Source: Streptomyces sp. NBC_00285 (GTDB lineage Bacteria; Actinomycetota; Actinomycetes; Streptomycetales; Streptomycetaceae). Taken from it: DNA of 64,000 nt. The notes under the pieces are model-generated. The model searched no databases. It was not told where the DNA came from and was given only the letters and a program-made list of their open reading frames with translations. The stretch spans positions 4,960,001-5,024,000 of the forward strand of contig NZ_CP108055.1 of the NCBI RefSeq assembly GCF_036174265.1, read 5' to 3'. Made by a program: the position numbers and the translations under genes. This document shows positions 1 through 11,066 of the stretch, piece by piece. Within the stretch, counting starts at the first letter, position 1, and every line of letters starts with the position of its first letter.

Positions 1-1031
1 GAGCGGGTGCAGGCCGCGCAGACGGGGGCGAGTCCGGCCAGGCCGCGCTGGCGGGCCCGGAACGCCTCGTGGCGGGCGGCGTCGGCGAAGGTGTGCTGGA
101 AGACGTCCAGGCCGGTGGCCGGGGCCCCGGGATAGGTCACCTTGAGGGAGTCGGCCTGCTCGATGGTGCCGTCGGTCTCGACGACCACGAGGTCGACCGG
201 GGTCAGTCCGACGGACTCGCTGCGGGCGGTTCCGCCGAGCAGCAGGACGGCGATCTCCTCGAAGAGCCGGATCCCGGTCTCCCTGCGCGGTGCGCCGTAC
301 CAGCGGTCGAACACCGCGCACAGCCAGCGCGCGTACGGCACCGGTTCCGCGGGGACGGCGCCGGGTGCCGCCGGGGGCGGGGTGGTGCGGCCGCCGAGTC
401 CGGGCGGCGGGGTGTGCCAGGTGGCGTGCGGCAGGAGCAGGTCCAGTCGGGGCGGGGAGAACTCCAGCAGGGCCTCGTAGGTCTCCACCGGGTCGGCGGT
501 GAGGTCGATGGCGCACAGCAGTCCGGCGTACAGGGCGTGGTGGGGGCCGTCGGTGAGGAGTCTCAGTGCCCGTGCGACCCCGGTGTGGCTGCCCCGGCCG
601 TCGGGGCGTCTGCGGTGGCGGTCGTGGGTGGCGGCGGTGCCGTCGAGGCTCACGCCGATCCGTACTCCGTGGCGGGCCAGGACGGGCAGCAGTGCCGGGT
701 CCTCGGCGAGCCTGAGGCCGTTGGTCTGCAGGGTGAGCCGCAGTGCGGCCACTCCGTCCAGGGCGTCGGCGAGGACGTGCAGCATGGCGTCCAGGCGGGC
801 GGCGCCCACCAGCAGCGGTTCGCCGCCGTGCAGGACGACGTGGACCTCGCGCAGTCGGTGTGTGCGGGCGTGCCCGGCGATGAGTGCGGCTGTGCGGCGC
901 ACGGTCTCGGGTGTCATGACCTTGGGGCGGTCGCGCCAGCTCTGGTCGGCCGACTCGTACATGTAGCAGTAGTCGCAGGCGAGGTTGCAGCGGCTGTGGA
1001 TCTTCAGCAGGAACTGCCGGAAGGGAACCAT
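1..1031 (-). CDS. fxsB: FxsB-type radical SAM/SPASM cyclophane-forming peptide maturase (3' end cut by window edge)
   Basis: Radical SAM enzyme expected to cross-link the C-terminal Phe-x-Ser of the FxsA peptide into a three-residue cyclophane. Seen: the [4Fe-4S] motif C15-x3-C19-x2-C22 in CNLACDYCY, HGGEP at 68-72, and near the window edge a VVVETDGTIEQADSLK segment followed by the first cysteines of an auxiliary-cluster (SPASM-like) region (VCAAC). ATG at 1031 is the only start before an in-frame TAG upstream, and MVPFRQFLLK matches how this family begins. It is the last visible gene of a minus-strand locus, 140 bp behind fxsT. About 343 residues are visible; the rest, including any fused HEXXH domain seen in some relatives, lies outside the window. 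Confidence 0.88.
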   Translation of the reverse strand, partial: MVPFRQFLLKIHSRCNLACDYCYMYESADQSWRDRPKVMTPETVRRTAALIAGHARTHRLREVHVVLHGGEPLLVGAARLDAMLHVLADALDGVAALRLTLQTNGLRLAEDPALLPVLARHGVRIGVSLDGTAATHDRHRRRPDGRGSHTGVARALRLLTDGPHHALYAGLLCAIDLTADPVETYEALLEFSPPRLDLLLPHATWHTPPPGLGGRTTPPPAAPGAVPAEPVPYARWLCAVFDRWYGAPRRETGIRLFEEIAVLLLGGTARSESVGLTPVDLVVVETDGTIEQADSLKVTYPGAPATGLDVFQHTFADAARHEAFRARQRGLAGLAPVCAACTR

Positions 1032-1171
1032 GGGCCAGCCTCGCTGGATCGCGCCGGTGCCCGGGCCGCTCCCGCCGGCGGCCGGGACGACACGGGAAAC
1101 GGTGTGGCGGGTGGCGGCATCCTACAACCCGTCAGCTCCGGGGCCCGCGGCGTCTTGGCCGCCGGCTGCGC

Positions 1172-4100
1172 TCAGGTGGTCGGCGGTTCGATGTCGGAGT
1201 CCAGCCGTACCCGGCGCGCGATGGCCAGGGTCGTCGGGTGGTCCTCTCCGAGGGTGCGTCTGGCCCGCGTCAGGGAGTCTTCGTAAAGGCGGTCCGCCTC
1301 CTCCGTACGCCCCAGGGCGCGCAGGGTGAGGGACAGGTTGGAGCCGCTGCCGATGACGTCGTAGTGATCGGGTCCGATCGCGGGCAGCAGTCCCTCCCGC
1401 GCCTGCGTCTCGATGTCGGCGGCCTCCTGGATCCGGCCGCTCTTCACCAGGTCGTTGGCGTGGTTGAGCATGCAGCTGTAGGTGTAGGGGTGGGTCTCCC
1501 CCAGGGCGGTGCGCAGGTGGTCCACGGTGCGTGCCGAGAGCGCGAGTGCCTCGTCGGTGCGGCCCAGCAGTCTGAGATACACCGAGGTGTTGTTCGCGCA
1601 GACCAGGGTGACGGGGTGCTCCTCGCCCAGGTAGTCCTTGTAGCGGTCGAGGGCCCGCTGGGAGTACTCCTCCAGCGCCTTGCCGGTGTCGCCGAGCGCG
1701 GCGAGGTCGCTGGCCAGGTTGCAGGTGACGGCGAGGGTGTCGTAGTGGTCGGCGCCGTGGGCCACGAGGTAGCGGTTGTAGATGTCCTTGTCGATGTCGT
1801 GGGCCTCGCCGTAGCGGCCGTCCCGGCGCAGGGCGACGGCGAGGTTCTTGCGGGCCCGCAGGGTGTCGCTGTGCCCGTCGCCGAGGAGCTGCTGGTAGAG
1901 GCGGGTGGTGGTCTCCAGGAGGCTCAGTGCCTGTTGGAGTTCTCCCGTCTCGCGCAGGTCCCGGGCGTAGTTGTTGGCCAGGTTGAGGGTGCGCGGCTTC
2001 ATGCTGCCCTGGGTCTGGCGCTGGCGGTCGTAGGCCGACCGGTGCAGGGCCAGGGCCGCCTGCCGGTCGCCCGCCAGGTATTCGGACATGCCCAGGTTGT
2101 TGGCGTACATCAGGGTCCGCTGGTGGTCGTCGCCGAACTCGCGCAGGGCCACCTCGTAGGTGTTGCGGTCCAGTTTGCGGGCTTCCTGGTAGCGGCCGAG
2201 GTTGCGCAGGTCGGCGCCGACGTTGCCGGCCGCGGCGAGGGCGTCGTAGTGGTCGGCCCCCTTGGTGGCGGTGAACCGCCGCAGCACGTCGGAGTCGACG
2301 TCGTACGCCTCCACCAGCCGCCCCTGCGAGCGCAGTACGTTGCCCAGTTGGGTGCGCAGGAGCAGGGTGTGCACGTCGTCGGGGCCGCCGCCGGGGAAGT
2401 CGGGCCGTGCCCAGCGTTCCAGGGTGCGTACGGCGAGGTCGTCGGCCATCCCGTAGAGGCTGCGCCGCCACAGGTAGCGCACCGAGTCGACGATCAGCTT
2501 GCGGACCTCGGGGTCGGGGTCGGCGGCGGCGCGTGAGGGTTCCAGGTGGGGCAGGAGCTCGTCGTACTTGTCCCAGTCCGCGGGGGACTCGGGATTGCCG
2601 CGGTTGGCGTCCGCCAGCGCGGTGTGCACCACGCCCCGCAGTTCCGTCCAGCGCTGTGCGCCGACCCCGTCCCGGATGACCGCCTGGACCAGCCGGTGCA
2701 CGGTCAGTGTCTCGGTGCCCTGGTCGCTGCGGGCCAGCCCGTACCGGTTGAGCAGGCGCAGCAGCTTCGCGACGGCCATGTCGTCGCGCAGGTCGTCCGC
2801 GTCCATGGTCAGGGCCCGGGTGACGGCCCGGCCGAACAGCAGCCGGGTGGGGATCGGGTCGGGGCCGAAGAAGGAGCAGATCTCCAGCATCTCCACGGCG
2901 GCCCGGTTGCCCTCGCGCAGGTCGTCCACCGCCAGCTTCCAGGTCTGGGCGGCGGAGGTGGGGTACTCCCGCAGCGGCAGCCGGGTGTCGTCGAGGATGT
3001 CCGCGGGGCGGTCGCGCAGCCGGGCGAGATAGATGTCGACGGGCATCGTGCTCTCGCTCAGCCAGGCCGCCGCCTGTCCCACCGCCAGCGGCAGGTCGCC
3101 GAGTTCGTGGGCGACCTGTTCCGCGTCCCCGGCGGCGAGCGAGGGGCTGAAGCGGCGGAGCAGTTCGACGCTCTCCGCGCGGCTGAAGACCGCCACCTCG
3201 GCCCGGCCCGCGCTGTTGACCCAGGCACGGTCGCGCGAGGTGATCAGCACATGCCCGCCGGGCGGCCCCTCCGGGAGGAGTCCCTCCAGTTCCGCGGGGC
3301 GGCCGGCGTTGTCGTACACCAGGAGCCAGCGGTCGTACGGCCGTCCCTGGCCCAGCGCGCGCAGCACGGCTTCGGCGGTGCCGCGCACGTCCTCGCCCTC
3401 CTCGAGGCCGAGGTCGCGGGCGAGGTCGGCGAGGGCGGAGGGCAGGAGGCCGGGCTGGGCGGCATCCAGCCACCAGACCACGTCGTAGGCGGACTTGTAG
3501 CGGTGCGCGTACTCCAGCGCGATCTGGGTCTTGCCCATGCCGCCGAGTCCGTACAGCACCTGGCTGGGCACGGTGGCGGAGGGTCCGGCGGTGAAGTTGT
3601 CGCGCAGCTGTTCGAGCAGCGGGCCGCGCCCGGTGAAGGACAGGTTGCGGGAGGGCAGGTGCACGGCGGGCGGCATCGAGCCGGGGAATCCGGACGGGGT
3701 CGTGACCGCCGGGACCGAACCGTCCGGCAGCCGGCGGCCGGCGGGCAGCCCGAGGACGGCGAGGAGCTGGTCGACGGCCTCGGCCGGGCCGCAACGGCTG
3801 AGGTCGGCGGCCATGCTCTCGAGGTAGGGCTCGGTGGCCGCCGGGTCGAGATCCTGGAGCCGGACGGCGACCAGACCGGGTCCGCCCGGTGTCTCGTACC
3901 CGGCCAGCTGGAGGCGGATCGCGGCGGCCCGCGCCTGGGCCGGGTACTCAGGTGTGAGCAGGGCCAGTACCCGGCCCTGGCCGTTCAGGGTGCCGACCAC
4001 CTCGGGCAGGACACCGCCGTCCGGGCCGACCGTGCTGTGCAGCGAGGCCTGGTAGCCGGCCGACTCCAGGGCCTCCGCGACCCACTCGGCCCAGATCCGG

Positions 4101-5194
4101 CCGAGCGGCGCGTAGCTGACGTAGATCTGGGTGGGCAGCGTGCGGGGGGTCCGCAGGTAGGCGGCGCGCAGTTCGGCGCGCCGGTCCGCGGGCAGGGGTG
4201 CGAGCCGGCGTACCCGGCCTTCCGAGATCCAGTCGGTGAGCCGCTCGAACGCGGTGAGCAGTGACCGTTCCTGCCGGGGCCGGTCGGCGACCGTGGCGGG
4301 GATCTCCTCGTAGGCGTAGAACGCCTTGTAGGGGATCTCGATCTCGCCCCAGTAGCGGCTGCGTTCCTCTTCGGGCACCCAGTCCAGGAAGGTGTCGAAC
4401 TCGGCGCGGGAGTAGTCCCGTCCGGCCTCCAGCCGTTCGGTCTCGGCCTCCTCGACCCGCATGGGGACCGGCAGCACCTTGATGGGGCGGGGCGCGGTGC
4501 GCCGTACGGCGGCCGCCGCGTCCACACCGCCGCTGATGCTCTGGACGCTCATGGTGAAGCAGTCGACGAGGATGTCGGGCAGGAGGATGGTGCAGATGCC
4601 GGAGGTGTCGCTCACTCCGGTCCGGCTGTCGATCAGCACGTAGTCGTAGGAGGAGACCATCTCCGCGCGCAGGGCCTGCAGGAAGTGCCCGCCGCCGTGC
4701 CGGTCGTAGAAGCTGTGCCAGTTGAAGCTGGTGACGGCGGCCGAGTAGGCGGCCGACTGGCGTCCGGCGGGCAGGAAGTCCAGACGGCCCCCGGAGGGCA
4801 GTTCCAGCAGCAGTCCGATGGTGTACGGCGTCGGGTCCGCGGCGGCCCGCAGCCAGCCGTCGTCCTCCGCCACGGCGGTCGCCGCGGGGCGTGCCGGGGA
4901 ACCGCCGTCGGCGGCCGCGCGGACCGGGGGCGCCTGGGGGCTCAGTACGGTGCGGACGTAGGCCTGCACCATGTTGATCAGGCCGTTGGAGGAGCGCAGT
5001 TCGGGATCGACCAGCAGCGGGTGGAGATAGCGGTGCAGGCCGGGCGCCTCCAGGTCCCAGTCGACCAGGAGCACACGGTGACCGCCGGCGGCGAGGATCC
5101 AGCCGACGTTGGCCAACGCCATGGTGCGTCCGGTGCCGCCCTTGTACGAGTAGAACGTGACGATCTTGCCCGGTCCGGTGGGCCCACTGGTCAT
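1172..5194 (-). CDS. fxsT: FxsT: KGG-motif ATPase / TIR-like / NB-ARC / TPR protein of the FxSxx-COOH system
   Basis: 1340 aa multidomain signalling ATPase. Seen in order: a ParA/MinD-like domain with a KGGTGRT P-loop (18-24) and VDWDLEAPG shortly after; a region about 350-470 beginning IYVSYAPLGRIWAEWV that reads as a TIR-like fold; an NB-ARC/STAND ATPase with P-loop GLGGMGKT (K555), a WLLVYDNAG Walker B and a HVLITSRD sensor; then roughly ten tetratricopeptide repeats from about 900 to the end (ALSLLETTTRLYQQLL-type units). The start overlaps the end of fxsC by 4 bp (ATGA), so the two are translationally coupled. Known of the family: such proteins accompany FxsB and FxsC; their job is unproven. 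Inference: TPRs sense a ligand and the STAND module oligomerises. Confidence 0.88.
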   Translation of the reverse strand: MTSGPTGPGKIVTFYSYKGGTGRTMALANVGWILAAGGHRVLLVDWDLEAPGLHRYLHPLLVDPELRSSNGLINMVQAYVRTVLSPQAPPVRAAADGGSPARPAATAVAEDDGWLRAAADPTPYTIGLLLELPSGGRLDFLPAGRQSAAYSAAVTSFNWHSFYDRHGGGHFLQALRAEMVSSYDYVLIDSRTGVSDTSGICTILLPDILVDCFTMSVQSISGGVDAAAAVRRTAPRPIKVLPVPMRVEEAETERLEAGRDYSRAEFDTFLDWVPEEERSRYWGEIEIPYKAFYAYEEIPATVADRPRQERSLLTAFERLTDWISEGRVRRLAPLPADRRAELRAAYLRTPRTLPTQIYVSYAPLGRIWAEWVAEALESAGYQASLHSTVGPDGGVLPEVVGTLNGQGRVLALLTPEYPAQARAAAIRLQLAGYETPGGPGLVAVRLQDLDPAATEPYLESMAADLSRCGPAEAVDQLLAVLGLPAGRRLPDGSVPAVTTPSGFPGSMPPAVHLPSRNLSFTGRGPLLEQLRDNFTAGPSATVPSQVLYGLGGMGKTQIALEYAHRYKSAYDVVWWLDAAQPGLLPSALADLARDLGLEEGEDVRGTAEAVLRALGQGRPYDRWLLVYDNAGRPAELEGLLPEGPPGGHVLITSRDRAWVNSAGRAEVAVFSRAESVELLRRFSPSLAAGDAEQVAHELGDLPLAVGQAAAWLSESTMPVDIYLARLRDRPADILDDTRLPLREYPTSAAQTWKLAVDDLREGNRAAVEMLEICSFFGPDPIPTRLLFGRAVTRALTMDADDLRDDMAVAKLLRLLNRYGLARSDQGTETLTVHRLVQAVIRDGVGAQRWTELRGVVHTALADANRGNPESPADWDKYDELLPHLEPSRAAADPDPEVRKLIVDSVRYLWRRSLYGMADDLAVRTLERWARPDFPGGGPDDVHTLLLRTQLGNVLRSQGRLVEAYDVDSDVLRRFTATKGADHYDALAAAGNVGADLRNLGRYQEARKLDRNTYEVALREFGDDHQRTLMYANNLGMSEYLAGDRQAALALHRSAYDRQRQTQGSMKPRTLNLANNYARDLRETGELQQALSLLETTTRLYQQLLGDGHSDTLRARKNLAVALRRDGRYGEAHDIDKDIYNRYLVAHGADHYDTLAVTCNLASDLAALGDTGKALEEYSQRALDRYKDYLGEEHPVTLVCANNTSVYLRLLGRTDEALALSARTVDHLRTALGETHPYTYSCMLNHANDLVKSGRIQEAADIETQAREGLLPAIGPDHYDVIGSGSNLSLTLRALGRTEEADRLYEDSLTRARRTLGEDHPTTLAIARRVRLDSDIEPPTT

Positions 5195-6588
5195 CGTCCT
5201 GTGTCCTTAGTCGCGAGCGGTTCGCCGGGCGGCTCCTCGGGGTCGCCGGTTCCGTACGCTCCGGTGTGCCGCGGCGGCTCCTGCGGGGGCGGGGCCGCCG
5301 GACGGGAGGCGGGGACGGCGTCGGGGGGCGTGGGCGGGGGACGCGGGCCGGCGGGGTCGGCCGGCCCGGGAATGGTGAGCCCGCTCAGCGGAGGCGGGGG
5401 CGGGCCCGCGGGAAGCCGGTAGGGGGTGGTGCTCTCCATCTCCATCAGCCGGTTCTGCGCCACCGCGAGCATCACGGCGAGCTGGGCGTCGAACTCGTCC
5501 GTGCCGACCTGCACCCGGAACAGCGGGTCGTGCGGATCGTTCTGGCGGCGCCAGTTGCGCCACAGGACCCGGCTCAGGTCCTGCCAGACCAGTTCGTCGG
5601 CGGTCTCCTCGTCGGAGTCGTGCGAGGGCACCAGGACGCAGGTGGCCGGGCGGTTCTGGCCGTCGTAGTCGGCGAGCGCGTCCCGGTAGGTCTGGATGCG
5701 CACGGCCCACGGGTCGACCAGCAGGATGCTCGTCTGGTTGTTCACCATCGTGTCGTCGAGGCGGCTGCTCAGTCCGTCGTCGACGACCTCGATGTTGCTG
5801 GTGTAGCCCTCCTGCACGATCACCCGCTGCGCCCGGTGGGCGACCGTGGGGTGCTTGGGCGGGTGGTACGGCGTCCACTCCCGCGGGGAACGCCCGTAGT
5901 ACTCCGGCCGCTGCCGGCCCTGTGGCAGCGGGTCGGTGACACCGGCTGCCAGGAAGACCTGCACGTGCCCGGTGCCCGGTGCGGCGGCACCCTGGTGCTC
6001 GGCGGTCGGGAACAGGCCGCGTACGTCGCCGAGGTCGAGGCCGGGGGTCACCGGCAGCCGGAACCGCTCCGCGGCTATCCGCACCCGGGCGGCGATCTTC
6101 CTGACGATCCTGTGGTACTCCGGGCCGGTCGGGTCGGTGCGCAGGATCTGCATCAGGCCCTGTGCGGAGTACTCCGGGCCCATGCCCGCCTCGTGGTACT
6201 GGAAGCGGGCGACCTCGTCGGGGACCTCTGTATCCATGGGCTCCCACAGCACCGGAACCAGCGCCGGGACGTCCATCTCGGTCTCCCGGCGGTAGCGCAG
6301 GAGCCTCTCCCAGAAGGCCGTCCACTCCTTGCCGCAGTACTCGCTGTGCAGATACGCGGGCGAGTACAGGGCGACGAAGGCGCGGCAGTGTCCGACCGCC
6401 GCACCGAGGACCCTCGACCAGTCCGCTCCCAGACCGAGGCGCTCGACGTCGCGGAACGGCGGCTGTGCCGTCGAGTCGGCACCGATCCGGCGGAGCTCCA
6501 GCACGAGGTCGTCGTGGAACCGCTTCACGAACTCGTCGCGGTCGTCCTTCCGCGCATAACTGAGGAAGAAGTACGGCTCCTGAACCAA
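5191..6588 (-). CDS. fxsC: FxsC: TIR-like protein of the FxSxx-COOH system
   Basis: 465 aa cytoplasmic protein. The N-terminus (PYFFLSYARKDDRDEFVKRF) is a TIR/SEFIR-like start with the FLSYA beta strand followed by charged helix; further TIR-like segments (RAFVALYSPAYLHSEYCGKEW, 86-106 region) follow. A middle domain (YYGRSPREWTPYHPP onward) is of unknown function and the last 90 residues are Pro-rich and probably disordered. Translationally coupled to fxsT by a 4-bp overlap, and separated from fxsA by 170 bp that holds a G-rich tract. No catalytic glutamate of NAD-consuming TIR domains could be assigned with certainty, so enzyme activity is open. Start ATG 6588; no obvious signal peptide. 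Confidence 0.85.
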   Translation of the reverse strand: MVQEPYFFLSYARKDDRDEFVKRFHDDLVLELRRIGADSTAQPPFRDVERLGLGADWSRVLGAAVGHCRAFVALYSPAYLHSEYCGKEWTAFWERLLRYRRETEMDVPALVPVLWEPMDTEVPDEVARFQYHEAGMGPEYSAQGLMQILRTDPTGPEYHRIVRKIAARVRIAAERFRLPVTPGLDLGDVRGLFPTAEHQGAAAPGTGHVQVFLAAGVTDPLPQGRQRPEYYGRSPREWTPYHPPKHPTVAHRAQRVIVQEGYTSNIEVVDDGLSSRLDDTMVNNQTSILLVDPWAVRIQTYRDALADYDGQNRPATCVLVPSHDSDEETADELVWQDLSRVLWRNWRRQNDPHDPLFRVQVGTDEFDAQLAVMLAVAQNRLMEMESTTPYRLPAGPPPPPLSGLTIPGPADPAGPRPPPTPPDAVPASRPAAPPPQEPPRHTGAYGTGDPEEPPGEPLATKDTGR

Positions 6589-6713
6589 GGCGCCCCCCGA
6601 TGCCTCCCCGGTCGACCTGGCGCCATGCCACGTGCATGCCGGAGTACGTCCGGGTCATACCCAGAGCGCCGATGACTCAAGCTGTCGGGTTCGGACATCT
6701 GTCCGGGTGTGCG

Positions 6714-6743
6714 GAGGGGGGTGGGAGGGGGTGGGAGGGGGTG
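6714..6743. repeat. G-rich tandem tract between fxsA and fxsC
   Basis: The plus strand has GGAGG followed by repeats of the unit GGTGGGAGGG, giving at least five runs of three or more G within 30 bp. It lies in the 170-bp gap inside the fxs locus; the sense transcript there is C-rich. G-quadruplex potential on the template strand is an inference. Confidence 0.6.
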
Positions 6744-6758
6744 GCAGGCGCCGGGATC

Positions 6759-6944
6759 TCAGAGCATCGACGAGTCGAAGGCGGCGTACGGAACACCGAC
6801 CGGATGGACGGCCTCGTCGACCACGCGGCGCAGCACCGCGCCCAGCACGGTGTCCGGATGATCTTCGAGCAGCTCGTCCAGCGCGTCCATGCTCAGGCCG
6901 GCCACATCGAGCAGGCATGAGTCGATCCGGGCGCTAGCGTCCAT
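6759..6944 (-). CDS. fxsA: FxsA: FxSxx-COOH-type precursor peptide
   Basis: Small precursor (61 aa from the ATG at 6944, 63 aa from the ATG at 6950) whose C-terminus reads PYAAFDSSML. Known of the family: FxsA peptides end in Phe-x-Ser-x-x and the Phe-x-Ser unit is cross-linked by FxsB. Here three residues follow the Ser (S-M-L), one more than the family name implies. The body (LLDVAGLSMDALDELLEDHP) looks like an amphipathic helical leader. AAGGGA sits 5 bp upstream of the 6944 ATG, which favours that start. First gene of the locus, ahead of fxsC and fxsT; the small size and position next to the other fxs genes make the call firm. Confidence 0.85.
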   Translation of the reverse strand: MDASARIDSCLLDVAGLSMDALDELLEDHPDTVLGAVLRRVVDEAVHPVGVPYAAFDSSML

Positions 6945-7000
6945 CGGCATCCCTTACACACGCGCGTGCGCTGTCGGGGCCGTTGCACGCGAAACCTACC

Positions 7001-7529: not shown

Positions 7530-8312
7530 TCAGGGCCGTTTCCCGGCCGCCTCCTGGCTCATCCTTGCGGCGAGGGCCAGGAAGACCGAAAGATTCTGGA
7601 CCATCTCCACGGGGAGCTTGGCCCACGGCTTTCCGTCACCATGCCGATGGATCTCCAGCCAGCCTTGTTTCACCGTGACCTGGTCGACCTCGTGCCAGCC
7701 GAGCCGGTGGTCGAGGTACCCGACACCGGCGGGATCGAGGTGGGCCCCGAAGAAGTCGACCCGTTCGCCCGCCTTCAGCCGGTCCCTGTCCTGCGGCAGC
7801 CGAACGCGCGTGAATGTCTTGTCCAGTTCGTCGATGAACCGGGCGACCCCCTTGTACGCGTCGGTCACCGCGATCTCGGCGCCCTCACGGGGACGCACCC
7901 AGAGTTCGTGTGTGGTGACGCTGGTGATCCCGTTCGTCACTTTGGTGCTGCTCCGCCGAACGCCGTCGATCTCGTCCCATGAGTACGCCTCCGGCACCTG
8001 CCCGGCGACCTCCCGGACGATGCCGTGCTGGTAGTGACCTACCCAGACCTGCGCCTGCCTTCTCGTGAGCGCGAGGAAGAGGAAATACCCGGCTGCGGCG
8101 ACAATGGCGGCCCCCAAGATGAGCAGCGGCAGCCCGTAGTACCAGGCGCCGTCGCTCCGCTGGCCCTCCACCGCGGCCGAAATCCCCAGCCAGAGCACCG
8201 GCAGTCCGACCAGTGTCGGCAGCAGCACCACGATCCACGGGAAGCGCTTGGGCTCGGTCCACACCAGCCCCTGGCGCGAACCGAGTTCGAAGTCCCGCGC
8301 GACTCTGCCCAT
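7530..8312 (-). CDS. Two-helix membrane protein, DUF6585-like
   Basis: 260 aa. Seen: two transmembrane segments, about 22-45 (WIVVLLPTLVGLPVLWLGI) and 60-82 (LPLLILGAAIVAAAGYFLFL), then a soluble C-terminal part with VWVGHYQHGIVREVAGQ and SWDEIDGVRRS, which resembles the PH-like fold of DUF6585 proteins, and a second half with YLDHRLGWHEVDQVTVKQGWLEIHRHG repeating the same architecture. Start ATG 8312 is chosen because the protein-like sequence begins there; no strong ribosome binding site precedes it and the true start could differ slightly. Function unknown. It sits between two mobile-element remnants. Confidence 0.65.
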   Translation of the reverse strand: MGRVARDFELGSRQGLVWTEPKRFPWIVVLLPTLVGLPVLWLGISAAVEGQRSDGAWYYGLPLLILGAAIVAAAGYFLFLALTRRQAQVWVGHYQHGIVREVAGQVPEAYSWDEIDGVRRSSTKVTNGITSVTTHELWVRPREGAEIAVTDAYKGVARFIDELDKTFTRVRLPQDRDRLKAGERVDFFGAHLDPAGVGYLDHRLGWHEVDQVTVKQGWLEIHRHGDGKPWAKLPVEMVQNLSVFLALAARMSQEAAGKRP

Positions 8313-8610
8313 GGCGGGCGGAACAGGAGTGGAACCACGATCCGACACAAGCCCCCCAAGACCAGACAACAGAGGGCCATTATCGGGGGAGGGAAGCACG
8401 CATGGGAAGAACGTCTCGGCCCAGCCCATCGGTTGGGCGGACGGTCCCGCACCCTCGGGCCGGGACGGGCCTCGAATAGCCCGGCGGGAAGATCCGCGGG
8501 CATGGACCGCCACTTGATGCCGTTGTCGCACTGCCATTGCTTGAGCTACTGAACTCAGCGATCGGCCAGGTCGGCCCGATCGCCTTCGAACAGCGAACGG
8601 TGTCCACGAC

Positions 8611-8892: not shown

Positions 8893-9392
8893 ATTCGCCG
8901 CCGCGGGGGCGCGGCGGCCTCGTGGCCTGTGCGGTGCGGCCCCCTGGGGCGCCACGGAGAGGTGCGCGACGGCCATCCGACCGAGACGGCCGCCTTGCAG
9001 GCGGTGGCCGAGAAGCTTGACATTCCACGCTCTGGTGCTCGGCGAGCCGCATGATCTCCGCGAAGTCGAGCGTGCAAGTCGGTCGATCTTGACGAACACG
9101 ATCACGTCCAGTTCGGCGAGCCTGGTCAGGATGCGTTGCAGTCCCGGACGGTCGAGCCCGCGCGAGAAGCCCGAAACTCTATGTCTTCCTCGGCGGCCAC
9201 GACCTCCCAGCCGCGTGCCTCGCACAGCGCTTCACAGGCCGCGCGCTGACGTTCGGGCGAAGTCGTCTCGTCGGTTTCGCGCGATAGGCGAACATAGACA
9301 GCGGCGCGCATCCCCGGCGCGCCGGCCGGGACGCCCTTCCGGCGTCGGGCACGGGGCATAGCCCGTGCTGTGACAGACGTTGGTTCTGTCAT
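8893..9392 (-). pseudogene. Serine recombinase (large resolvase-type) N-terminal remnant, frameshifted
   Basis: The first frame from 9392 reads AAVYVRLSRETDETTSPERQR, the catalytic-serine strand of site-specific serine recombinases (YxRxS). After EEDIE the homologous text continues in another frame (VSGFSRGLDRPGLQRILTRL, VIVFVKIDRLARS) and then in a third (DFAEIMRLAEHQS), so at least two indels have broken it, after which similarity is lost. No recombinase or zinc domain follows. Likely a relic of an integrated element; no attachment site was found beside it. Confidence 0.75.
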
Positions 9393-9419: not shown

Positions 9420-11066
9420 GTGTCCTGCCTAATCGTCCAGTCCGACAAGACCCTGCTGCTGGAGGTCGACCACGAGCTGGCCGACGAGTGCCGTCGGGTC
9501 ATCGCTCCGTTCGCGGAACTGGAGCGGGCGCCCGAGCACATCCACACCTACCGGGTGACCCCGCTGGGTCTGTGGAACGCGCGGGCCGCCGGGCACGACG
9601 CCGAGCAGGTGGTGGACGCGCTGGTGCAGTACAGCCGGTATCCGGTGCCGCACGCGCTGCTCGTCGACATCGCCGAGACGATGGACCGGTACGGCCGGCT
9701 CACCCTCAGCAAGCACCCCGCGCACGGGCTCGTCCTCACCACCACCGACCGGCCGGTGCTGGAGGAGATCCTGCGCTCGAAGCGGGTGGCACCGCTGGTC
9801 GGGGCTCGGCTCGACCCGGACACCGTGGCCGTGCACCCCTCCGAGCGCGGCCAGATCAAGCAGACGCTGCTGAAGCTGGGCTGGCCCGCCGAGGACCTCG
9901 CCGGGTACGTCGACGGCGAGGCGCACCCGATCGAGCTGCACGAGGACGGGTGGGCGCTGCGGCCCTACCAGAAGCAGGCCGTGGAGAACTTCTGGCACGG
10001 CGGCAGCGGGGTCGTCGTGCTGCCCTGCGGCGCCGGCAAGACCCTCGTCGGCGCCGGGGCCATGGCACAGGCCAAGTCGACCACCCTCATCCTCGTCACC
10101 AACACCGTCTCGGCCCGGCAGTGGAAGCACGAGCTCATCAAGCGTACGAGCCTGACCGAGGAGGAGATCGGCGAGTACAGCGGGACGCGCAAGGAGATCC
10201 GGCCCGTCACCATCGCCACCTACCAGGTGCTGACGACCAGGCGGAAGGGCGTCTACCAGCACCTCGAACTCTTCGACTCCCGGGACTGGGGGCTGATCCT
10301 CTACGACGAGGTGCACCTGCTGCCGGCGCCGGTCTTCAAGTTCACCGCCGATCTCCAGGCCCGGCGGCGGCTGGGGCTGACCGCGACCCTCGTGCGTGAG
10401 GACGGCCGGGAGTCGGACGTCTTCTCGCTCATCGGGCCCAAGCGGTTCGACGCGCCGTGGAAGGAGATCGAGGCGCAGGGGTACATCGCGCCCGCCGACT
10501 GTGTCGAGGTCCGGGTGAACCTCACGGACGCGGAGCGGCTCGCCTACGCCACCGCCGAGCAGGAGGAGAAGTACCGCTTCTGTGCCACCACCGCGACGAA
10601 GCGGAAGGTCACCGAGGCGATCGTGCGACGCTTCGCCGGGCAGCAGATCCTCGTCATCGGTCAGTACATCGACCAGCTGGACGAACTCGGCGAGCATCTG
10701 GGCGCTCCCGTCATCAAGGGCGAGACCTCCAACGCCCAGCGCGAGAAGCTCTTCGGCGCCTTCCGGGAGGGCGAGATCAGCGTGCTCGTGGTGTCCAAGG
10801 TCGCGAACTTCTCCATCGACCTGCCCGAGGCGACCGTCGCCGTCCAGGTCTCGGGGACCTTCGGGTCACGGCAGGAGGAGGCGCAGCGGCTGGGCCGGGT
10901 GCTGCGGCCCAAGGCCGACGGGCACAAGGCGCACTTCTACTCGGTCGTCGCCCGCGACACCCTCGACCAGGACTTCGCCGCGCACCGCCAGCGGTTCCTG
11001 GCGGAGCAGGGGTACGCCTACCGGATCATGGACGCGGACGAGCTGCTGGCGGAGGACCAGGGCTGA
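9420..11066 (+). CDS. DNA repair helicase XPB family (superfamily 2)
   Basis: 548 aa ATP-dependent 3'-5' DNA helicase of the bacterial XPB type. Seen: N-terminal damage-recognition-like domain (LIVQSDKTLLLEVDHELA), RPYQKQAVENF (Q-motif-like), Walker A CGAGKT with K207, DEVH at 296-299, GLTATLVREDG motif III region, and the C-terminal helicase half with QILVIGQYIDQLDELG, VVSKVANFSIDLPEATVAVQ and QRLGRVLRPK (motif VI). GTG start at 9420 is preceded by GGAGG at the right distance. Its length fits bacterial XPB. Monocistronic; the next gene downstream is on the other strand. Role in nucleotide excision repair or recombination is family knowledge, not shown here. Confidence 0.9.
   Translation: MSCLIVQSDKTLLLEVDHELADECRRVIAPFAELERAPEHIHTYRVTPLGLWNARAAGHDAEQVVDALVQYSRYPVPHALLVDIAETMDRYGRLTLSKHPAHGLVLTTTDRPVLEEILRSKRVAPLVGARLDPDTVAVHPSERGQIKQTLLKLGWPAEDLAGYVDGEAHPIELHEDGWALRPYQKQAVENFWHGGSGVVVLPCGAGKTLVGAGAMAQAKSTTLILVTNTVSARQWKHELIKRTSLTEEEIGEYSGTRKEIRPVTIATYQVLTTRRKGVYQHLELFDSRDWGLILYDEVHLLPAPVFKFTADLQARRRLGLTATLVREDGRESDVFSLIGPKRFDAPWKEIEAQGYIAPADCVEVRVNLTDAERLAYATAEQEEKYRFCATTATKRKVTEAIVRRFAGQQILVIGQYIDQLDELGEHLGAPVIKGETSNAQREKLFGAFREGEISVLVVSKVANFSIDLPEATVAVQVSGTFGSRQEEAQRLGRVLRPKADGHKAHFYSVVARDTLDQDFAAHRQRFLAEQGYAYRIMDADELLAEDQG

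Follow-up and report, generated by a model that had tools for sequence, protein, structure and literature searches.

Introduction

Standalone FxSxx-type peptide-processing systems of actinobacteria were described by Kaur, Burroughs, Iyer and Aravind in eLife in 2020, and their reading as conflict systems, with the peptide as toxin or signal, was published there (PMC7159879). We analyse here a locus of this type, the Fxs operon, in Streptomyces sp. NBC_00285, where it lies at the left end of a 64,000-nt stretch (C1:4960001-5024000, hereafter the window) of a 10.3 Mb genome. With a FxsB-family maturase, a TIGR04268 precursor and FxsC and FxsT partners, the locus genuinely belongs to a system that is already known and widely distributed. 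New here are a division between two TIR domains, a loss of NB-ARC motifs seen only where no precursor was found, a class of loci with a separate, intact hydroxylase gene, a variable chromosomal site beside an XPB helicase gene, and a linkage to TGHR and SLATT proteins; the conflict-system reading predates this analysis.

Two further kinds of system are relevant for comparison. FxsB-type enzymes reportedly make three-residue cyclophane ribosomally synthesised and post-translationally modified peptides (RiPPs), the triceptides, in work from 2020 by Nguyen and colleagues and from 2022 by Phan and Morinaka and by Sugiyama and colleagues. Thoeris is a TIR signalling system with a SLOG-domain effector of the ThsA type. 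A limited literature search found no report on what the Fxs peptide does, nor any record for this locus of a phage phenotype, a cross-linked product or an NADase activity; for the names FxsB and FxsC/FxsT, the matches listed (for FxsC/FxsT, 15 of 50) were unrelated uses of the letters only.

Operon content and comparison with described systems

The operon lies on the minus strand in the order FxsA–FxsC–FxsT–FxsB, followed by a gene for an HExxH protein, and is flanked by a helicase-associated gene and the XPB helicase (Table 1). A preliminary description of the window had recognised a four-gene unit; wrong coordinates or frames in that reading were considered and rejected, all four open reading frames (ORFs) being confirmed in place and above curated cut-offs. 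The unit proved larger by one gene, for a predicted peptide beta-hydroxylase with an intact HEFLH motif, which is wholly outside the window and begins 28 nt after FxsB. FxsB is 401 aa in full length, with its N-terminal 343 aa in the window and 174 nt past the edge. The FxsC and FxsT genes overlap by 4 nt, and the ratio of nonsynonymous to synonymous substitution rates (dN/dS) between the copies of the window genome (G000) and a relative (G079) is 0.19-0.41 across the five genes, indicating purifying selection. Because curated cut-offs are passed, two of the genes overlap and dN/dS is low, the co-occurrence of the Fxs gene set is far beyond chance.

Table 1. Positions of the Fxs operon and of features at its chromosomal site (window positions unless prefixed C1)
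Feature	Position	Strand	Remarks
FxsA precursor	6759-6950	-	TIGR04268 48.4 bits (cut-off 28); 61-63 aa
FxsC	5191-6588	-	TIGR04276 220.6 bits (cut-off 55); NF040588 188.3 bits (cut-off 130)
FxsT, 1340 aa	1172-5194	-	NF040586 952 bits over residues 513-1340 (cut-off 300)
FxsB	1-1031 in window; C1:4959826-4961031 in full	-	TIGR04269 462.8 bits (cut-off 370)
aKG-HExxH-type peptide beta-hydroxylase, 358 aa	C1:4958721-4959797	-	TIGR04267 155.7 bits (cut-off 40)
Helicase-associated gene	C1:4955954-4958752	+	Left border of variable site
DUF6585 protein	7530-8504	-	Between Fxs operon and XPB
Decayed serine-integrase remnant	9026-9392	-	Ends about 28 nt upstream of XPB start
XPB DNA-repair helicase	9420-11066	+	NF045503 863.7 bits; conserved right border of variable site

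Like the systems of Kaur et al., the operon combines an FxSxx precursor, a radical SAM/SPASM maturase, a metal-site (HExxH) protein and, coupled to these, an AP-ATPase (STAND) that bears an additional MinD/ParA-like domain (PMC7159879). The claim that its parts form a known co-occurring set holds, and the locus is a cyclophane-RiPP locus coupled to TIR and STAND proteins. Unlike those systems, the window locus encodes its HExxH protein in a separate gene, matched by an NCBIfam model for an alpha-ketoglutarate-dependent (aKG) beta-hydroxylase and not a peptidase, and its precursor has one more residue (FDSSML); the FxSxx section of PMC7159879 does not name FxsC. Among the neighbours scanned (the helicase-associated gene, a 158-aa protein, a HAD phosphatase, DUF6585, the integrase remnant and XPB) there was no CRP-like regulator, vWA or MoxR gene, and hence none of the adjacent vWA and MoxR genes that characterise VMAP, or vWA-MoxR ternary, systems.

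The FxsB-family cyclophane maturase is shared with the triceptides; unlike these, the window locus is tied to TIR and STAND proteins and shows no export gene. A likeness to Thoeris, drawn from general knowledge, lies in the TIR with a catalytic-type glutamate and, in many relatives, in nearby TGHR (SLOG-like) and SLATT proteins. However, the five-gene operon holds no ThsA-like effector, and has instead a RiPP and a STAND protein resembling nucleotide-binding leucine-rich-repeat receptors (NLRs).

Relatives were drawn from a sample of 121 Streptomyces genomes containing 61 FxsC loci, 60 of which were read (G033, below the cut-off, was left out; G058, below the FxsC cut-off, was kept as a locus and counted as FxsC-negative in the 45/76 split of genomes used below). 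FxsC scored over its cut-off in 45 of the 121 genomes and, in a phylum-wide sample, in 3 of 296, all in the window's own genus, and phage records gave no FxsC match at the limit used. FxsB was present at 51 of the 60 loci, and FxsB, FxsC and FxsT together at 50.

Division between the two TIR domains

FxsC consists of an N-terminal TIR domain (about residues 4-175) and a C-terminal Rossmann-like FxsC domain (about 208-384). The TIR bears a catalytic-type glutamate, Glu88, in the helix after the SPxY strand, and Glu is found there in 70 of 71 aligned sequences (the window protein and 70 of 91 listed proteins, fragments and near-duplicates being omitted). FxsT begins with a MinD/ParA-fold ATPase bearing a KGGTGR motif (about 8-328; NF047398, 126.7 bits at 10-222, cut-off 90), followed by a TIR-like domain (about 355-481; TIR_2 at 357-466), an NB-ARC domain (547-706 in Pfam, 24.2 bits against a cut-off of 23.5) with an intact P-loop, GGMGKT, and the motif WLLVYDN, and a C-terminal part of kinesin-light-chain-type TPRs (six TPR_12 stretches). 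The FxsT TIR has no catalytic-type glutamate, the position being I426 in the window and I, L or V in 46 of 50 sequences (the window protein and 49 of 120 listed); the preceding residue, Ala in the window, is acidic in 27 of the 50, which in those relatives could reflect a one-residue register shift. Given that the glutamate is present in the FxsC TIR and absent from that of FxsT, FxsC is likely the enzyme and FxsT the sensor or receptor.

The NB-ARC with intact P-loop and the repeat sensor domain make FxsT a STAND, or NLR-like, protein, and its profile matches include Roq1 and APAF-1. It shares with plant TIR-NB-LRR receptors and APAF-1 the logic of TIR, NB-ARC and repeat domains, but its TIR is without the catalytic glutamate, the Glu-bearing TIR is a separate protein, the repeats are TPRs, and a MinD-like ATPase is added at the N-terminus. 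Across the loci, the NB-ARC is degenerate in three of five rows without a precursor (L080, L081 and L095) and in none of the 48 with one; L080 and L081 are alike, and the degenerate cases perhaps represent two events.

Fold matches were rejected as proof that FxsC is an enzyme, as scaffold TIRs tie with NADases. An attempt to name its C-terminal domain was also rejected, since apart from TIRs the Foldseek matches were generic Rossmann-like folds, and the VIA rows are confined to residues 1-177. A PDB check of the FxsT TIR fold did not succeed either: the matches listed were taken up by the MinD-like part, residues 7-328, and the TIR assignment thus rests on Pfam and on the model's secondary structure.

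The precursor and its modifying enzymes

The conserved part of the precursor is its C-terminal motif. FxsA of the window ends in YAAFDSSML, where FDSSML is one residue longer than FxSxx-COOH (F at -6), and its G079 orthologue ends in FDSSI. Its start is probably the second ATG (6944), giving 61 aa, since a start in 'MDA' is common to L041, L044 and L046. The preliminary description would have been undermined by relatives that always lack FxsA; on the contrary, a precursor was found at 48 of the 51 FxsB loci, 47 of them with F-x-[S/A] in the last seven residues, and in L042 the motif FTSAL is followed by 16 further residues. No precursor was found in L095 or L096, and L097, whose contig begins inside FxsB, could not be judged. 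Those of L065, L077 and L085 were picked by eye in a longer listing and those of L042 and L094 by similarity; as background, F.S.{1,3} ends occur on 77 of 6550 ORFs of <=200 aa, most of the found precursors included.

Among the 47, F stands at -5 in 43, at -6 in three (the window included) and at -7 in one, and the third motif residue is Ser in 45 and Ala in two, L077 (FDAAL) and L085 (FDAAI). Ser or Ala at this position is what would be expected for a cross-link to a beta-carbon. Extra C-terminal residues (1, 2 or 16) are carried by 5 of the 48 precursors, and TIGR04268 requires no exact end.

The HExxH domain separates the 51 FxsB loci into four groups: an intact separate gene in 4 (the window genome, G079, G065 and G014), an intact fusion to FxsB in 5, a fusion with the motif lost in 38, and no domain in 4. 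In an FxsB tree of 51 rows (L097 omitted, two rows from L046), a branch with support 99/81 divides the four separate-hydroxylase loci from all other rows. NCBIfam already names the 'lost' HExxH form, NF040587, and a solved relative of FxsB is the radical SAM domain of ChlB (9gm3). The window's genome has a second Fxs locus (L040:5480-13885, C1:5352.5-5360.9 kb), in which FxsB is fused to an HExxH domain with intact motif and the precursor ends in AAFQSAV. In G108, one FxsC-FxsT pair is flanked by two FxsB genes (L046:5099-14763).

Genes linked to Fxs loci in related genomes

Linked genes were counted at the 60 loci by clustering of mechanically called genes. A SLATT_3/SLATT_1 protein is present at 29 loci and a TGHR protein (about 160 aa, starting RIGVTGHR) at 25, an undercount; an alpha/beta-hydrolase is present at 38 (immediately downstream of FxsT at 31 of these, on the opposite side at 7) and an AAC(3)-like acetyltransferase at 17, in 15 of the 17 between FxsB and FxsC. 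None of the four is beside the window locus. The AAC(3)-family genes, such as L083:8667-9473, which scores below the NCBIfam AAC(3) cut-offs, perhaps modify the peptide rather than confer drug resistance.

A TGHR subfamily scoring >200 bits occurs in 34 of the 121 genomes, all within the 45 FxsC-positive and in 0 of the 76 FxsC-negative, and usually has a SLATT gene beside it; below this subfamily the scores drop to 146 bits, and a further 30 genomes, FxsC-positive and FxsC-negative alike, carry weaker relatives (61-146 bits). The gene is within 10 kb of FxsC in 30 of the 34, at 19 kb in G000, 17 kb in G079 and 468 kb in G057, and on a different contig in G028. SLATT_3 is over its cut-off in 35 of 45 FxsC-positive versus 4 of 76 FxsC-negative genomes, and these four have a more distant SLATT with no gene of the >200-bit TGHR subfamily beside it. 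The genomes are related, and Fisher tests of the association are accordingly not independent; the linkage nonetheless recurs in different neighbourhoods, namely one shared by 24 loci, those of L077, L083, L085, L091 and L092, and that of L044. Within the shared neighbourhood, 8 of the 24 loci carry the operon in the reverse orientation at an unchanged place between the SLATT and alpha/beta-hydrolase sides (L065, L067-L070 and L072-L074, against L049-L063 and L066).

TGHR could not be upheld as a confirmed SLOG domain, with no Pfam family at E <=10 and no PDB sequence match. In the window's genome, an acetyltransferase, SLATT and TGHR trio (C1:5334.9-5337.5 kb, L109:5878-8470; TGHR and SLATT at C1:5335.9-5337.5 kb) is upstream of the second Fxs locus, about 15-20 kb away. 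Judging from a limited search, the SLATT link to Fxs may be new: in the accessible part of Kaur et al. (PMC7159879), SLATT is mentioned in other subsystems only.

The chromosomal site at the XPB junction

Both border genes of the site are on one contig in 87 of the 121 genomes, in the same orientation in 85; in the other 34, either the genes were apart or none of the matches listed extended as far as the end of the left border gene. The gap between them is <300 bp in 22 of the 85 and <1 kb in 46. By listed coordinates, FxsC is near XPB only in G000 and G079 of the 121 genomes, although XPB of G110, G068 and others is 97% similar to that of G000 and XPB of G079 94%; the operon is thus patchy at this site.

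Ten XPB sites were fetched, one empty (G101) and nine filled. Telling genes (AbiL-like, STAND or integrase) occur in three of the nine, G107, G083 and G075, the second of which is outside the 87-genome census and was examined separately; the junctions of G005, G045, G053, G104, G109 and G115 hold different ORFs with domains unscanned. At G107, an intact 546-aa serine integrase (L099:17489-19129) lies about 28 nt from XPB, and the junction also holds RepSA, a replication initiator of the pSAM2 type, a protein weakly matching FtsK and a metallophosphatase/nSTAND protein that matches PDC-S60 of PADLOC; G083 (L102) has a related integrase at the equivalent place beside XPB, and G075 (L101:1135-6030) an NB-ARC-TPR protein with an AbiLi/AbiLii (RloB-like) pair. 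The remnant in the window matches residues 1-125 of the G107 integrase (tblastn, 88-97% identity; DNA, 93% over 480 nt), and both pieces contain the Resolvase domain. That the remnant proves delivery of the operon by this element was rejected, however, because in G079 the operon occupies this site with no integrase homology, which limits the claim to this: the junction is a recurrent integration site, sometimes holding defence-like genes. A DNA comparison found no counterpart of the DUF6585 gene at the G079 site.

FxsC outside Fxs loci

FxsC and FxsT occur without FxsB in L080, L081 and L089, and the FxsC module is inside a larger protein in six loci (L071, L075, L087, L088, L093 and L098). 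An AAA ATPase gene neighbours the fusion in L088, and a short KGG-ATPase-like ORF (341 aa) that in L093. On Rhizobium beringeri plasmid pRlX4 (L115:9001-12542), an FxsC-like TIR gene overlaps by 4 nt a gene for a KGGTGRS ATPase, whose C-terminus we take to resemble a formylglycine-generating-enzyme-type domain; FxsA and FxsB queries gave no match in the 19 kb fetched around the FxsC-like gene. FxsC with a MinD-like ATPase may represent an older core to which the STAND part and the peptide were added. On a Kitasatospora plasmid, an annotated MoxR ATPase precedes an FxsC fusion, an arrangement reminiscent of the vWA-MoxR systems in Kaur et al.; the domain scan of FxsC-fusion neighbours found no vWA domain.

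A proposed mechanism and its alternatives

We propose, tentatively, that the locus is a standalone FxSxx peptide-processing and TIR-STAND conflict-signalling operon, in which the peptide, once cross-linked, would gate a STAND protein and this in turn would switch on a TIR enzyme. We regard this as possible rather than probable, and our confidence in the mechanism overall is moderate to low. Going by family assignment, FxsB would join the Phe in the FxsA C-terminus to the second residue after it, and the peptide would be hydroxylated by the HExxH enzyme. As the five genes include no exporter or protease, the peptide would be retained in the cell, where it may be a ligand or tether of FxsT, most likely via the TPR domain. 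A change in its amount or modification, or an infection cue, would then lead to assembly of the NB-ARC/MinD-like FxsT, whose Glu-less TIR would recruit the Glu-bearing TIR of FxsC, and FxsC would in turn consume nicotinamide adenine dinucleotide (NAD+) or make a nucleotide signal. In many relatives this output might be read by the linked TGHR protein and a SLATT membrane effector; the TGHR/SLATT pair of the window's genome is unlinked to the window locus.

The preliminary description had placed the locus in a context of immunity and regulated cell death, and this holds in part. The catalytic-type glutamate of FxsC, the AbiL-like, STAND and integrase genes at three of nine XPB junctions, the SLATT/TGHR linkage and the FxsC modules in large proteins, one of them beside an annotated MoxR ATPase, are all consistent with it. 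Two results lend it no support. Firstly, the four window proteins matched no full system in PADLOC-DB 2.0: there were a partial match of the N-terminal ATPase (residues 10-59) to PDC-M28B and a weak TIR match to SAVED5 (E 0.002), FxsB matched pVip (viperin) with 38.9 bits across the radical SAM domain that the two have in common, and FxsA matched nothing. Secondly, the comparison of gene neighbourhoods suggested earlier as a check for defence islands found one conserved chromosomal neighbourhood common to 24 of the 60 loci, with no obvious island.

The strongest alternative, which we consider unlikely though worth serious attention, is a developmental or stress regulator, with the cross-linked peptide as an internal signal of metabolic state that is read by FxsT and with FxsC tuning NAD+ or a nucleotide signal. 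The modifying enzymes by family need S-adenosylmethionine, iron-sulfur (Fe-S) clusters, alpha-ketoglutarate and O2, and the frequency of FxsC in Streptomyces, the shared neighbourhood, purifying selection on all five genes and the lack of a match in phage records would suit such a role; the company of TIR, STAND and SLATT proteins, and the genes of anti-phage-like kind that some strains have at the XPB junction, would not.

Conflict signalling could also take a more specific form, in our view improbable, in which the modified peptide is an intracellular password for the NLR-like FxsT. The correct peptide would silence FxsT, and infection that drains S-adenosylmethionine, Fe-S, alpha-ketoglutarate or translation, or destruction of the peptide, would let FxsT assemble and its dead TIR dock the live TIR of FxsC, sending a nucleotide signal through the TGHR sensor to a SLATT pore. 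Comparably improbable is that processing turns the peptide into a toxin or suicide effector, its release on activation controlled by FxsT and FxsC. The published proposal allows this (PMC7159879), and it is the C-terminal motif of the precursor that is conserved. Yet a protease gene is absent from the operon, the HExxH 'peptidase' of Kaur et al. is now modelled as a hydroxylase and has lost its motif in most FxsB loci, and some precursors extend past the motif.

Export of the peptide as a RiPP natural product, whether antibiotic or signal, under the regulation of FxsC and FxsT is very unlikely. RiPPs with three-residue cross-links, darobactin and dynobactin among them, have biological activities that are well understood according to the accessible text of PMC12257519, and an abstract describes darobactin as antibacterial, but no transporter or immunity gene is seen in the operon and FxsB is kept with FxsC and FxsT at 50 loci. 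Least probable of all, FxsC/FxsT and the RiPP genes could be mere neighbours with unrelated roles, as the Rhizobium pair without RiPP genes and the three loci without FxsB might suggest, against which stand FxsB at 51 of the 60 FxsC loci, the precursor at nearly all of these, and the confinement of NB-ARC degeneration, in perhaps two events, to rows without a precursor.

Implications

For the tentatively favoured conflict-signalling operon, the residue census points to FxsC, at Glu88, as the protein to assay and to FxsT as the likely receptor, and the TGHR/SLATT linkage provides a candidate output of Fxs signalling. The window locus moreover belongs to a distinct class, 4 of the 51 FxsB loci, in which an intact hydroxylase is encoded by a gene of its own. 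The password form, if true, would to our knowledge be the first case of a RiPP that is not secreted but works inside the cell as an immune cofactor. More generally, if the model is true, RiPP chemistry and TIR/STAND immunity would belong to one pathway.

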